Of a stretch of DNA of 64,000 bases, positions 13,290 to 46,013 are shown piece by piece. The notes below the pieces were generated by a model, which was given only the letters and a program-made list of their open reading frames with translations, did not search any database and was not told the DNA's origin. A program made the translations under genes and the position numbers. The DNA lies in contig OY282355.1 of assembly GCA_958295525.1 (NCBI GenBank), positions 1,613,504 through 1,677,503 of the forward strand, written 5' to 3'. The DNA is from an uncultured Dehalococcoidia bacterium. Lineage in GTDB: Bacteria; Chloroflexota; Dehalococcoidia; Lucifugimonadales; Australimonadaceae. How positions within the stretch are numbered: the first letter of the stretch is position 1; each line of letters starts with the position of its first letter.

Positions 13290-14228
13290 CTACCCGCCCC
13301 GCAGGGCGGCCAGCGCCGCCGCGAGGTCGTCGGGGAGCGGCGCCTCGAACGCGCGGCGCTCCGTTTCGGCGGGAGGCATCGCAATCTCCAGCCGCGCCGC
13401 GTGCAGGAAATGCCGCGCCGCGAGTCCCGAGCGTTTGCCGTAGACCGCGTCCCCAACGAGCGGATGCCCCAAGCGCGCGAAGTGCACCCGGATCTGATGC
13501 GTCCGCCCCGTAACCGGATGCGCTTCGGCGAGCGTGAACGCCCCAAACGGCCCGTCGAACCGCTCCAGCGTTCGGTAGCGCGTCAGCGCCGGCCGCCCGC
13601 CCTCGACCACCGCCATCCGCTTGCGCTCGACGGGGTGCCGCGCGATGGGCGCGTCAATCTCGCCCTCATCGCTTCGCATCAGCCCCGCCGCGAGCGCGAG
13701 GTACGTCTTGCTCACGCTGCGCTCCTTGAATTGGCGCGTGAGGCTCCGGTGCGCCGCGTCGGTCTTCGCCACGACGATCAGGCCGGACGTGTCCTTGTCC
13801 AGCCGGTGCACGATGCCGGGGCGCTCCACGCCCCCGATGCCGGGCAACTCCGGCGCGAGCACCAGCAGCGCGTTCACAAGCGTGCCGTCCGGATGGCCCG
13901 GGGACGGATGCGCCGTCAGCCCCGCCGGTTTGTCCACCACGATGATCTCTCCGTCCTCGTAGACGATTCCGACAGGGATGTCCTGAGGGACGAGGTCGAG
14001 CGGAACGGGAGGCGGAACGACGACCTCCACGACGTCGCCCGGGCGCAGCGCGGCGGACGGTTTGGCGGGGCGTCCGTTCACCGCGACGAATCCCTCGCGA
14101 GCGAGCGCGGCGGCCCGCGAGCGGCTCAGCGAGGGGTCACGCGACGCGGTGAACACGTCCGCCCGCGCCCCGGCGTCCGCCTCTTCCGCGACGTAGCGGG
14201 ATGCGGCGCTAGTCGGCGTATTCCTCAT
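13290..14228 (-). CDS. RluA/RluD-family pseudouridine synthase
   Basis: A 312-residue protein with an N-terminal S4-like domain (DPSLSRSRAAALAREG...VNGRPAKPS) and a catalytic domain with HRLDKDTSGL at residues 141-150 (catalytic Asp144), then GRTHQIRVH. Family enzymes convert uridine to pseudouridine in 23S rRNA. Its ATG (14228) overlaps the stop of the inserted UDG-like gene by 4 nt, and its first 20 bases are part of the 22-bp direct repeat shared with the end of lspA. Without the insertion, lspA and this gene would overlap by 20 nt, a common lspA-rluD arrangement. Confidence 0.93.
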   Translation of the reverse strand: MRNTPTSAASRYVAEEADAGARADVFTASRDPSLSRSRAAALAREGFVAVNGRPAKPSAALRPGDVVEVVVPPPVPLDLVPQDIPVGIVYEDGEIIVVDKPAGLTAHPSPGHPDGTLVNALLVLAPELPGIGGVERPGIVHRLDKDTSGLIVVAKTDAAHRSLTRQFKERSVSKTYLALAAGLMRSDEGEIDAPIARHPVERKRMAVVEGGRPALTRYRTLERFDGPFGAFTLAEAHPVTGRTHQIRVHFARLGHPLVGDAVYGKRSGLAARHFLHAARLEIAMPPAETERRAFEAPLPDDLAAALAALRGG

Positions 14229-14895
14229 CGATATAGTCGCCGAATGGCTTCTGAGAATTCAGTCTTCCCGCCGTAACTGGGGTGCCTGACCTTATCGTAG
14301 GTCCTATTCCCTCCCGCTTGCAGAACTGCTTTTTCGGCTTCGTTGCCGACCGCGACCAAGCATTGGGGATCAAGCGCATCAATCAATTTAGCGAGCAATT
14401 CGCATCCCGCTAGACGCTCTTGACGCCGGAGACTTCGATTTCTAGACGGGTTATCCGGCTGGTGGGGATGCAGCGGGAAGACGTTCCAGAGGAAGACTCC
14501 CTCATCAATACGGCGCAACTCTTCCCAGACGGCCTGCGCAGTGCGTTCTCTTATCTCTGGGCCGGTGGTTGGGCGTTCTATGTCAACGCCCCATCGCTCA
14601 CCGTGGGCTTGGAGAGCACAGTCGTCCGTGAATGCCAGTCCCGTTCGCCGAGCTCCCAAGCGTCCCGGGGCAAGCCCGACCCACAGGGAGTCCACTCCGC
14701 GCTCCTGAGCGCGGTCAATGATGGCCGCCAAGGCGGTGCGCCGCAGCGCGGGAGCGTCCTGCAGGTCGTAAACGGGGCAGACGTCGGCGTAGGGATTGAA
14801 GGCATCCTCGAATCGCAACTCGGCCAACCTTCCGACGAACTCTTCGGCGAACCCCATCGCTTTCTCCTCCTTGCTAGTCGGCGTATTCCTCATCG
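14209..14895. repeat. 22-bp direct repeat flanking an inserted gene
   Basis: Positions 14209-14230 and 14874-14895 are identical over 22 bp. The right copy is the natural 3' end of lspA with its stop; the left copy is the 5' end of the rluD-type gene. The 643 bp between them hold only a ribosome site and the UDG-like reading frame. This is the signature of an insertion with target duplication, or of an att-like site at a gene 3' end. Confidence 0.9.
14225..14857 (-). CDS. Uracil-DNA-glycosylase-like protein (inserted gene)
   Basis: A 210-residue protein of the UDG superfamily by pattern: an early WVGLAPGRLGARRTGLAFT segment resembling the GEAPG motif A, NVFPLHPHQ in the middle, and a late VGNEAEKAV...VRHPSYGGKTEF segment resembling the HPS motif B. 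Canonical catalytic residues are not certain and its substrate is unknown. The ATG at 14857 is preceded by AAGGAGGAG at good spacing. The stop TGA is supplied by the flanking 22-bp repeat and overlaps the next start. The gene interrupts the lspA-rluD pair. Confidence 0.75.
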   Translation of the reverse strand: MGFAEEFVGRLAELRFEDAFNPYADVCPVYDLQDAPALRRTALAAIIDRAQERGVDSLWVGLAPGRLGARRTGLAFTDDCALQAHGERWGVDIERPTTGPEIRERTAQAVWEELRRIDEGVFLWNVFPLHPHQPDNPSRNRSLRRQERLAGCELLAKLIDALDPQCLVAVGNEAEKAVLQAGGNRTYDKVRHPSYGGKTEFSEAIRRLYR

Positions 14896-15383
14896 CCGGG
14901 AACCGTCGTCGTTGCGAGGGCGGGGCGCCTCGGGCGGGCCAGCAGCACAAGCGCGGAGAAGATGGCGATGCCTGTAACGATGGAGGCGTCCGCGAGGTTG
15001 AAGATGTACCACGGCCCGATGTCTATGAAGTCGGTGACGTGCCCGAGCGTGATGCGGTCGGCGAGATTGCCGCACGCTCCGGCGAACATAAGCCCGAGGC
15101 TCGTCTGCGCCCATACCCCTCCGTTCGCTTGCGAGCGGTAGAACAGCAGCAGCACGCCGATTCCGACGATGGACGCCGCAGTCAGAACCAGATTTTGGCC
15201 GCCGAACAGCCCGAACGCGCTTCCGGTGTTCCAGACGTGCGTGAATCGGAAGAACCCCGTTTCCGGCCACGACTCGCCCCGCGCCAGCGTGAGCACGACC
15301 GCCAGTTTGGAAACTTGGTCGGCGGTGAACGCCAGCAGCGCCGCCAGAATCGCCACGCCGTGCCTGCCGAGGAACGCAACCAT
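14874..15383 (-). CDS. lspA: Lipoprotein signal peptidase II
   Basis: A 169-residue membrane protease with four hydrophobic helices that cleaves signal peptides of lipid-modified prolipoproteins. Family motifs are NTGSAFGLF (52-60), GNLADRITLGHVTDFIDIG (105-123) and FNLADASI (128-135), supplying the two catalytic Asp. Expected length for the family. It lies upstream of the inserted UDG-like gene and of rluD in one minus-strand run. Its last 22 bases are duplicated at 14209-14230. Confidence 0.95.
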   Translation of the reverse strand: MVAFLGRHGVAILAALLAFTADQVSKLAVVLTLARGESWPETGFFRFTHVWNTGSAFGLFGGQNLVLTAASIVGIGVLLLFYRSQANGGVWAQTSLGLMFAGACGNLADRITLGHVTDFIDIGPWYIFNLADASIVTGIAIFSALVLLARPRRPALATTTVPGDEEYAD

Positions 15384-42004: not shown

Positions 42005-42124
42005 AGATTCCCGCCTACGCGGGAACGACGGGGCAGGGGGGCGCTTGCGCGCCGACTGGATTCCCGCCTACGCGGGAATGACGGGACAAGAGGGCGAGGT
42101 TCCCGCCTACGCGGGAATGACGGG
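42005..42124. repeat. Cluster of three REP-like palindromes
   Basis: Three copies of ATTCCCGCCTACGCGGGAAT-type sequence followed by GACGG at about 42005-42031, 42058-42083 and 42099-42124, with a fourth degenerate tail (GGAATGATGGGAC). They fill the gap between the amidohydrolase and fic genes. Two spacers share a GGGGCA/GGGACA stretch. Too short and irregular for a CRISPR array. Confidence 0.8.
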
Positions 42125-43512: not shown

Positions 43513-45731
43513 CCGCATCACGCGCTGGGGATGGGCGTGTCGTAGTCGACGCCGCGCGAGCGCCGCCGGCGGCTTACGGGATGGGCGGCGGGGTTGGGGT
43601 TGCTACGGCGGAGGGCGCCGGCCCAGGAATTGCTATGGAGACATACGCCCACTCGGAAAACTCGGACTCATGGAGGTCCGCGCCTGTGTAGTAACGGTTC
43701 ACGAATCTGACGCGGTAGGAGTAGGAGTTTCCAGGAGCAAGCCCGTAGATGATAGTTTCCGACTCGCCGTACTGCACGGCGATGGGGTCCGGTTGAGCGT
43801 CGTCGGAAGGTCGCCCCATTCCTGTGTTGCGCTGTACCACTGCTGCAGTTCGGGGTCGGCGCCGCCTACGCCGTCACCAGCTTCCCACTGCAGAATCGCC
43901 ACGCCTCTGTCCTTGTAGTCGGGATGATTGGACGTTCCGACCGCGGCGGTCAGGTTGAGCACAGCGGGAACCCATGCCCTTGGGGCAGGGACGACGGGGA
44001 CGGGGCCTGCGGCGCGGATGCGGAGCATAAGGTTCTCGCCGCCGCGCCACGGAGGGTCCCGCGCCTCCCAAGTCAGCGCGCCTCTTTCGCCGTCCAACTT
44101 GGCGTCGGACGCGGAGAGCGTTCGCAGAATTGAGGCGTCGGGGAGAATGACGTCTACGTCGTATCCGATTAGCGCCGCAGGAGCGGACGCCTCCAGCGAT
44201 ATGAGTCCCGCCTCCCAGCCCATAGATTCTATGACGCCGGCTTCTCCGTTGATTGAAAACCCCGCAGGAGACAAGACGCCGGTTGCCGCGGAGGCTCCTA
44301 TGAATCCGTCCGACGCTACGGGGTCGAAGAACGCCTCGTGCAGCGTTCCCTGCGCCGATGGGACAACTTCCACTATCCACCCCGTGGTGAAAGGGGAGAG
44401 CGCGTAGCCGTTCACCGTGAAATCGCAAAGCGTCTCTTCATAACTTTGTGACCATGCGGAAAACCGGTATGTCCCGGCAGGTAGAGGCCGTGCAGCCGTA
44501 AGCGCCGCGTAGTACCCGTTGCCGGACGAATCGTCGTCGTCAACGATCTCAATCGTGAAATGACGATGGTCGGGGCCCTCGAGCCGGATGGTCTCGTAGC
44601 CGGCGCTGTAGTACTGCCGATCCTTGCGGATTCCCGCTCCCGCCGGCAACCCTGACGGCATTTGGTCTCCCCGCGCGTATGGGCTCGGTTTGTAGTCGGG
44701 CCCGTAGCGCGCCCGGTCCCTGCGTTCTGCCGCCTCGGCTCTAATCGTCCATTCGATGCAGTCCGTATAGCCGTCCACGCCCTCGCCCTTCTGCAATAGC
44801 GCGTCGAACGCCGCTATCCGCGAACGGAGGTCGGCGAGCGGCATAACGACCGGGGAGCTCCCTTCTCCCGGCGGGCCGGACTCCGAGTAGGATCGCGGCG
44901 CGCCTTCGTTCTGATCGGCGGAAAGCCAAGTCTCCGCCGTCACGGGAACCCAATGTCTGTCGTAAGAGTCTCCGCGGCTCAGCAACGAGGCCCCGGCCAC
45001 CCCGTCCTGACTGAGTTTGGGCAGAAAGAGCACGCCGTCCTTGCGCCTGGGGGCGCCTTCCTGCGTGTTCCACCAAGCCCAAGCCGCGTAGCGCGCCTGG
45101 CCGTCCGTCAAGTACTGGAGAGACCCGCCGCTCACGTCGTACCGGTTGCTAAGATTGTCCTCAATGAGAATCCGGTCGGGCCCGGAGCCCTTCAGATATT
45201 CGGTTACGCCGAACTGCAGTTGCAGCGTCGCCGCGCACCCCGGCATCAGTCGGCCAGTCGTCGTGCCCGACCGTTCCGCGTCCCACCGGTCGGGGCGCAC
45301 GCGCTTCGTCTTGACCGCCGCATCCATCGCCGAGCCGCGAACGATTGCTTGCGAATGGAAGAGCAGGCTTTCCAGCGAAGGCGGAATGGCGGGCGGCGGC
45401 GGAACCAGCGTCGGGAATGGGCGCGGCTTGGGAACAACCAGGTTGGGGTCAATCTCCGTATAACACTCTTCGAGCGGAGGCGGAGGAATCGCCGTCGGCG
45501 TTGGCGTCGGAGTAAGCGCAGGGGTGGGAGTAGACGTAGGCGCGGCCACGGATGCGGGAGCGGAAGTAGGAGTTGACGCGAGCGGCGACGGCGGCGCGGC
45601 AGGCTCCATTTGCGCGCATCCTGCGCTGGCCGCTAGCAGCCCGGACAGGAACAGCATCGCCCAGCGCGCGCCCGCCACGCGCCGCATCACGCGCTGGGGA
45701 TGGGCGTGTCGTAGTCGACGCCGCGCGAGCG
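43513..45731. repeat. 50-bp perfect direct repeat flanking a lipoprotein gene
   Basis: Positions 43513-43562 and 45682-45731 are identical over 50 bp. The right copy is the natural 3' end (last 14 codons and stop) of the 108-residue gene plus the start of the lipoprotein gene; the left copy lies past the lipoprotein 3' end and is not part of a gene. The arrangement parallels the 22-bp repeat at 14209-14895. Confidence 0.9.
43574..45687 (-). pseudogene. Lipoprotein with fibronectin-like end, frameshifted
   Basis: Starts MRRVAGARWAMLFLSG, then LLAASAGC, a lipobox, followed by a Pro/Thr-rich linker and a long extracellular part. At about 43800 the frame shifts: one frame ends at 43699, while the sequence IAVQYGESETIIYGLAPGNSYSYRVRF, clearly a fibronectin type III strand set, continues in another frame to 43574. 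Joined, it would be about 700 residues. The start shares one base with the upstream stop (TGATG). It is carried between the two 50-bp repeats, suggesting insertion. Function unknown; surface anchored. Confidence 0.7.
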
Positions 45732-46013
45732 GAACCAGATGTGGATGCCCGCCCAGAAGCGCTCCGGGTCCATCTCGATGATCTCGCCGGACTCCGCGCG
45801 CGCCATCACGAGCGCGCCCCACGGCTCGGGGCCGCGCCGCTCGCCCTCGATGGCATGGTCGCCGCGCCAGGAGCGCAGGCCGTCCATTCCGGTGAGGAAT
45901 TCGCGCAGGATTGCGGGCTCGGCGGTGATCGCCTCGCGCACGGCGCCGCTCTCGTCGAGCACGAGCACGACGTCGAATTCGCCGAAGGATCGCCATTCCG
46001 CAGTGAGGGGCAT
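45687..46013 (-). CDS. Small protein downstream of dioxygenase beta
   Basis: 108 residues, family not recognised: MPLTAEWRSFGEFDVVLVLDE, an internal HAIEGERRGPEPWGALVM and the end RSRGVDYDTPIPSA. It starts 9 nt after the beta-subunit stop and is likely co-transcribed with the dioxygenase. Its last 14 codons are duplicated at 43513-43562. Confidence 0.6.
   Translation of the reverse strand: MPLTAEWRSFGEFDVVLVLDESGAVREAITAEPAILREFLTGMDGLRSWRGDHAIEGERRGPEPWGALVMARAESGEIIEMDPERFWAGIHIWFRSRGVDYDTPIPSA

Follow-up and report, generated by a model that had tools for sequence, protein, structure and literature searches.

How single genes without mobility functions of their own enter a chromosome cleanly is a standing question. 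Integrase elements classically restore the 3′ ends of genes. A further route, homology-facilitated illegitimate recombination (HFIR), combines homology on one side of the incoming DNA with an illegitimate joint on the other, the joint commonly showing microhomology of a few bases. In Escherichia coli, linear molecules with one homologous end gave recombinants most of which duplicated part of the homologous lacZ segment, according to the sections of that work cited here (PMC3240628). Those sections give 109 to 950 bp for the sequenced duplications and ascribe them to a single crossover of a circular molecule (PMC3240628). HFIR has been proposed, in the passages used here, as the origin of many small variable segments (PMC2884548) and, by the authors of the study, for the effector-immunity displacement arrays of the Vibrio T6SS (PMC5361080). 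Here, we describe a gene that appears to have been captured behind lspA in a Dehalococcoidia genome, in a stretch of 64,000 nucleotides (the window).

Results

A single gene lies between two copies of the lspA tail

A repeat search of the window located an exact direct repeat of 23 bp, GCTAGTCGGCGTATTCCTCATCG, at positions 14208-14230 and 14873-14895, 665 bp apart from start to start. An earlier note on this DNA had described the repeat as 22 bp long; its existence stands, while the exact search gives the longer size. The features of the locus are as follows:

14874-15383, minus strand: lspA (signal peptidase II), the resident gene with the duplicated tail (Pfam Peptidase_A8, 3.5e-32)
14873-14895, minus strand: repeat copy 1, the lspA 3′ end through TAG plus one base (from the sequence)
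14858-14872, minus strand: ribosome-binding region of the inserted gene, AAGGAGGAGAAAGCG (from the sequence)
14225-14857, minus strand: inserted gene of 210 aa, predicted UDG superfamily (Pfam UDG)
14208-14230, minus strand: repeat copy 2, which gives the UDG stop codon and the rluD start codon (from the sequence)
13290-14228, minus strand: rluD-type pseudouridine synthase (Pfam S4 and PseudoU_synth_2)

The right copy of the repeat is the end of lspA. The left copy holds the last UDG codon, the UDG stop (TGA), and the rluD start in an ATGA overlap, the same roles that the note had assigned to the two copies. The first rluD codons are thus the duplicated lspA tail in another reading frame. Between the copies, the UDG gene with its ribosome site is the sole convincing gene, and neither the reading frames of the insert nor their Pfam matches revealed an integrase or transposase. 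Gene layout and comparison with relatives showed that both lspA and rluD remained intact. On all three of these points, our results agree with the note.

Exact copies of the 23-mer occur only at these two places in the whole 2.51-Mb single-contig genome, and a version with three mismatches at one further place. A back-of-envelope estimate puts the chance of an exact repeat of this length, within 2 kb and in 64 kb, below 1e-4. The remaining long repeats of the window are internal protein repeats, paralogues, or REP-like sequences, with the exception of a 50-bp case at 43513-45731. REP-like palindromes around ATTCCCGCCTACGCGGGAATGACG are abundant (window positions 42006-42124 and also loci L104 and L115).

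Relatives carry the empty site

We compared the locus among the six genomes of the genus, comprising this genome (G000) and its congeners G001 to G005, and among more distant relatives. We matched lspA in 56 of the 59 genomes searched and UDG in 2 of the 59, and wherever both lspA and rluD could be paired, it lay between them in G000 and G005 only. Across 250 genomes of the order, UDG gave matches at 1e-10 in four, with only the G005 copy at the lspA/rluD place. This copy, 56% identical, directly adjoins lspA. The search for empty sites that the note had proposed was successful: congeners G001 to G004 have no UDG, leaving empty lspA/rluD sites in four of the five congeners.

The seven loci from other genera of the family all have the rluD start inside the lspA tail. 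In six of them, the rluD ATG is placed exactly 20 nt before the lspA end, and the seventh has its only ATG at -56. Taking one repeat copy as ancestral yields the same 20-nt lspA/rluD overlap, as the note had predicted for removal of the insert with one copy. Thus, the reconstructed ancestor is the real ancestral state, and our data support the insertion of a single gene into this overlap with both neighbours intact.

The inserted gene is foreign and has plasmid-borne relatives

The insert matched the Pfam UDG profile PF03167 (E 4.5e-10; 40.2 bits against a curated cut-off of 24.3). A search of the PDB with its structure model, whose mean pLDDT was only 66, was headed by SMUG1 chains (E 3.3e-6, probability 1.00), with family 4 UDGs lower down. 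By profile and predicted fold, the protein would thus belong to the UDG superfamily, with SMUG1 and family 4 UDGs as the nearest folds. It resembles the superfamily in both respects but differs in matching none of the NCBIfam or PADLOC models. PADLOC assigned it to no family, and PHROGs to only a weak, chance-level one.

The UDG gene is foreign by codon composition. Its GC3 is 0.64 in G000 and 0.71 in G005, compared to 0.84-0.96 in neighbouring genes; for the immediate neighbours of the insert, the range is 0.84-0.92. The value in G000 is lower than in all 821 called genes compared, a rank that is approximate, as the home-made dicodon caller used for the gene calls favours high-GC3 genes and missed UDG itself. 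The best explanation is that UDG, an accessory gene, arrived by horizontal transfer and was captured immediately downstream of lspA.

Among the matches listed, the closest homologues outside the genus are plasmid-borne, reach at best about 48-50% identity, and often adjoin MazG-type genes; plasmid relatives are about 41-50% identical over nearly the full length (best 20 of 45 records). We inspected 11 plasmid regions, 2 of which are unannotated. The gene directly upstream of UDG encodes a MazG-type nucleotide pyrophosphohydrolase in 6 of these 11, and TIR-domain genes occur nearby in 5. The MazG_C domain was confirmed in plasmid loci L036 and L086. The MazG-UDG pair also occurs in G553, a genome from the Chloroflexota but not from this class, and the six genus genomes have no MazG-type partner. 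In the plasmid and G553 proteins, the C terminus extends into a tail, often ending in a QLxLF-like motif, which may be a clamp-binding motif. This tail is missing in G000 and G005, whose proteins stop at RRLYR or just beyond it.

The UDG gene stands directly behind a MazG_C-type pyrophosphohydrolase gene in plasmid loci L036, L038, L039, L081, L084, and L086 and in G553 (L051/L101). These pairs are often found near TIR, SIR2, C1-protease/ImmA, or dCTP deaminase genes, and the neighbourhood may be an undescribed nucleotide/DNA-surveillance or defence module. A lone UDG relative in genome G691 (L100, 6687-8097) lies in a housekeeping context, directly behind an operon resembling succinate dehydrogenase/heterodisulfide reductase, and has no flanking repeat.

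Tail duplications recur behind unrelated resident genes

The scan for isolated repeats found a second case in the window, a 50-bp direct repeat with 100% identity (43513-43562 and 45682-45731) around a single lipoprotein-like gene:

45687-46013, minus strand: resident gene of 108 aa (orthologue comparison)
45682-45731, minus strand: repeat copy 1, the last 45 nt of the 108-aa gene through TGA plus 5 nt (repeat scan)
43699-45687, minus strand: inserted lipoprotein-like gene, 662 aa as an open frame, with its start codon inside repeat copy 1
43513-43562, minus strand: repeat copy 2 (repeat scan)

The lipoprotein-like gene has a patchy distribution, with 18 of 247 genomes of the order carrying it. 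In the stretch read, it does not follow the orthologues of the 108-aa gene in G002, G004, and G005. Near its 3′ end, the lipoprotein-like frame seems shifted, with a plausible continuation in another frame.

We extended the footprint scan to 1.264 Mb of the G000 genome, window included. The scan listed 31 rows; after removal of rows labelled as paralogues, of everything from L187, which holds a repetitive Ig-like protein, and of the nested rows in a single cluster, 20 isolated duplications were left, including L109 and L141, which look like tandem paralogues. The tail of the fructose-bisphosphate aldolase (FBA) gene is repeated over 98 bp (90%) with a 61-aa gene between the copies, and that of a fused type I methylase/specificity gene over 33 bp (94%) with a 229-aa gene on the other strand. 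The tail of an MFS gene (40 bp, 82%) flanks a family 2 glycosyltransferase, and the ftsH tail (64 bp, 77%) flanks a Panacea-domain antitoxin and a small gene. A second MFS gene has a 54-bp tail repeat (93%), and a 39-bp repeat (95%) just after dinB encloses a HicB-type gene. The FBA and ftsH sites are empty in G004.

The position of these repeats relative to stop codons was far from random. Measured from the stop codon of the gene upstream, seven of the 20 repeat ends lie within 12 nt (0.41 expected) and five within 5 nt (0.18 expected); when positions were drawn at random and uniformly along each stretch, none of 5000 trials reached either count. The lspA repeat ends at +1 from the lspA stop. 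The weakest among the seven are L179, with 75% identity, and L183, with a spacing of 4.8 kb. Two related cases do not end at a stop, namely L144 (+35) and L113 (wholly after the stop). Duplication of the gene-start type was seen once among the 20, at lspA/rluD itself, and the inverted-repeat control gave 2 rows in the same 1.264 Mb. GC3 was lower in eight insert genes, taken from five stop-type loci and two looser ones, than in eight resident genes (Mann-Whitney p 0.0015).

A 400-kb portion of G047, from another family of the order, had five duplications, two of them of the stop type (p 0.003). One footprint there surrounds a Phd/PIN toxin-antitoxin pair behind hsdM, and two repeats fall short of the stop codon, by 4 and 11 nt. 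The 400 kb of G004 contained one isolated duplication and no stop-type footprint; thus, the process is uneven.

Several other repeated arrangements were seen. In G047 (L214, 2291-4917; L216, 13485-16993), type I restriction genes have duplicated parts that enclose a Phd/PIN pair and nucleotidyltransferase/HEPN-like small genes. L131 (15519-17612) holds a tandem array of related antitoxin and PIN-like toxin pairs with a common upstream element, TAGACTTAGCTAAGGCTA, repeated. A gene family beginning MTQAAASTTATRRS lies inside direct repeats twice (L185, 1125-2069; L112, 6814-10201; 39 bp at 100% and 73 bp at 89%) and is a possible multi-copy inserted gene. In L143 (6660-13683), a large membrane protein gene is tandemly duplicated, with a shortened phage-capsid-like frame between the copies.

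A proposed model of one-sided homologous recombination

With somewhat less than even confidence, we favour one-sided homologous recombination with illegitimate joining of the far end as the best explanation of the UDG capture. On the incoming DNA, the UDG gene would have stood behind the tail of an lspA orthologue. The donor lspA part would have paired with resident lspA, and the far end of UDG would have been joined illegitimately a few bases before the rluD start, giving the order lspA, UDG, native lspA tail, rluD. The start of the repeat would then mark the joint, which could fall anywhere in the resident tail, and its end the limit of donor homology at the stop codon. The rluD gene would stay whole only if the joint fell upstream of its ATG, so the visible repeat would be the 20-nt overlap plus 3 bp. 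After capture, the ATGA overlap would couple UDG translation to rluD, in place of the old lspA/rluD overlap.

Ku is encoded in all six genus genomes and an ATP-dependent ligase gene adjoins it in G000; thus, candidate machinery for the illegitimate joint would be at hand. The insert contains no integrase or transposase, and the duplication ends, as judged indirectly, where the donor's homology to the resident gene would end. At the joint, UDG and the target, judged against G005, have 2 bp (CG) in common, and the UDG gene is cut at its 3′ end relative to its plasmid homologues. A donor-type lspA-UDG adjacency exists in G005. For the lipoprotein case, the three comparable orthologous loci all have no such adjacency. 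The last 47 alignment columns of G000 lspA score 0.80 to G005 and 0.71-0.76 to the others, unlike the rest of the gene; the difference is slight and carries no significance value, and no conclusion was rested on it.

Some observations argue against this model. A donor-type adjacency was found for UDG only, and a donor with the order lspA-UDG-rluD would normally recombine on both sides, leaving no repeat. At 23-50 bp, the repeats are short, and a very close donor would be needed for the copies to be identical. L144 and L113 do not end at the stop, no footprint was found in the 400 kb of G004, and G000 and G005 have the insertion site in common without being sisters.

Alternative explanations

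The repeat might have arisen without any insertion, by chance or through convergent coding constraint, the latter named by the earlier note as a possible refutation. We consider this practically negligible: the copies are identical at 23 of 23 positions in two different frames, they are the only exact ones in the genome, and empty sites in relatives rule it out. The note itself had suggested a single-gene mobile unit. In that reading, a small site-specific element of the integrase type would use the resident gene 3′ end as its attachment core, with the enzyme supplied in trans. The repeats do end at stop codons and each insert carries one or two genes; yet each insert has a different resident gene and would need its own attachment site and enzyme every time. 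Insertion sequences and MITEs are recognized by terminal inverted repeats and multiple copies, and the insert has neither, G000 containing no second UDG copy. An integrase island would show an integrase within the element or a shared attachment sequence, whereas here the 23-bp repeat is unique to its site. The search for flanking repeats at UDG genes elsewhere, which the note had called for, gave none longer than 13 bp at ten other UDG loci, including G005, and no UDG relatives were found in the phage records and viral contigs searched. The footprint, moreover, surrounds unrelated genes. A mobile unit of this kind is therefore improbable. An insertion disrupting lspA or rluD would probably be lost; this, together with a repeat that stops at the end of the resident gene, would account for the seemingly precise landing. 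Our data do not support mobility of UDG by itself, and we regard it as one of a class of captured genes with duplications of the resident tail.

The main rival to one-sided homology is a staggered break, in which offset nicks would leave long overhangs, foreign DNA would be captured, and joining of the Ku/LigD type would fill both sides. This would give target duplications of any length, with selection keeping events that left the flanking genes intact. It accommodates the presence of Ku in every genus genome, with a neighbouring ligase in G000, the variation of repeat length from 23 to 98 bp, and the need of both lspA and rluD for a duplication of at least 20 nt. Nevertheless, we regard it as rather unlikely. 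Target-site duplication predicts ends scattered past the stop as well as gene-start repeats, and it leaves unexplained both the excess of repeats ending within 5 nt of the stop and the missing gene-start repeats. Selection for an intact tail also predicts no repeats ending before the stop, as the two in G047 do. Because the ends are seen at the stop, tail homology on one side fits better.

Age of the UDG capture

A four-gene tree placed G000 outside G001-G005 (100/98 with protein, 100/100 with DNA); thus, G000 and G005 are not sisters. As they have the site in common, the insertion may be older than the perfect identity of the repeat suggests. The gene may have been inserted once, before the genus diversified, and then passed on vertically, with losses in G001-G004 and retention in G000 and G005. 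Such a history is compatible with any of the insertion mechanisms above, and we give it just under an even chance. The 23/23 identity would then be old sequence held by coding constraint in two frames. In both genomes, UDG occupies the same place with the same start, MG[FL]AE[ED]FV, and the same end, RRLYR, and the UDG tree joined the two (93/87) outside the plasmid clade. The rluD heads of G005 (LRNTASI, p 0.003) and G002 (MRNPASA, p 0.013) resemble the duplicated head MRNTPTS when compared to 5101 random starts. Against this history, UDG is highly diverged: the G000 and G005 proteins are 56% identical, compared to 76-87% for neighbouring genes, and fourfold sites differ at 0.64 (59 sites), compared to 0.39-0.46, although low-GC genes may evolve fast here. 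Both repeat copies would, in addition, have had to remain unchanged along the entire G000 branch.

Discussion

The recurrence of the footprint around unrelated captured genes points to a general way of adding single genes and not to a new mobile element. We tentatively propose, while holding it to be the less probable outcome, that accessory genes in these Chloroflexota are repeatedly added one at a time, directly behind the stops of resident genes, by a route that uses no integrase and leaves a copy of the tail. The route may be a coupled homologous and end-joining repair, with RecA-type pairing on one side and Ku-ligase joining on the other. If true, single-gene gain in these genomes would have a main source that has gone unrecognised. 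Tail duplications bounded by stop codons can be searched for and counted in any set of genomes, and they set homology-anchored capture apart from the action of integrases and from target-site duplication. Each gives the orientation of a capture and may also give its date. The lspA/rluD case illustrates that an insertion can cross an overlapping, probably essential gene pair without damage.

We found no description of a stop-codon-bounded tail-duplication footprint in the open-licence literature searched. What is new is this natural, repeated footprint; the type of reaction is not. Genomic islands of tyrosine integrases likewise insert at gene 3′ ends, duplicate the tail, and leave the gene intact; here, instead, there is no integrase, one or two genes are inserted, and the resident gene differs each time. 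In the Vibrio T6SS arrays, as presented in the parts of that study cited here, a new module likewise lies behind the conserved part of a gene, with the old 3′ part shifted downstream (PMC5361080). The displaced part there is the immunity gene of one type of locus (PMC5361080), whereas in the present cases the resident genes are unrelated and leave no more than a remnant of their tails. Closest is HFIR, which, in the sections cited, shares the homology anchor on one side, the illegitimate joint on the other, and the lack of an integrase, and is described from experiments or as replacements and deletions (PMC3240628, PMC2884548). In contrast, the trace reported here is a 23-98 bp copy of a gene tail, bounded by the stop codon and repeated within one natural genome.
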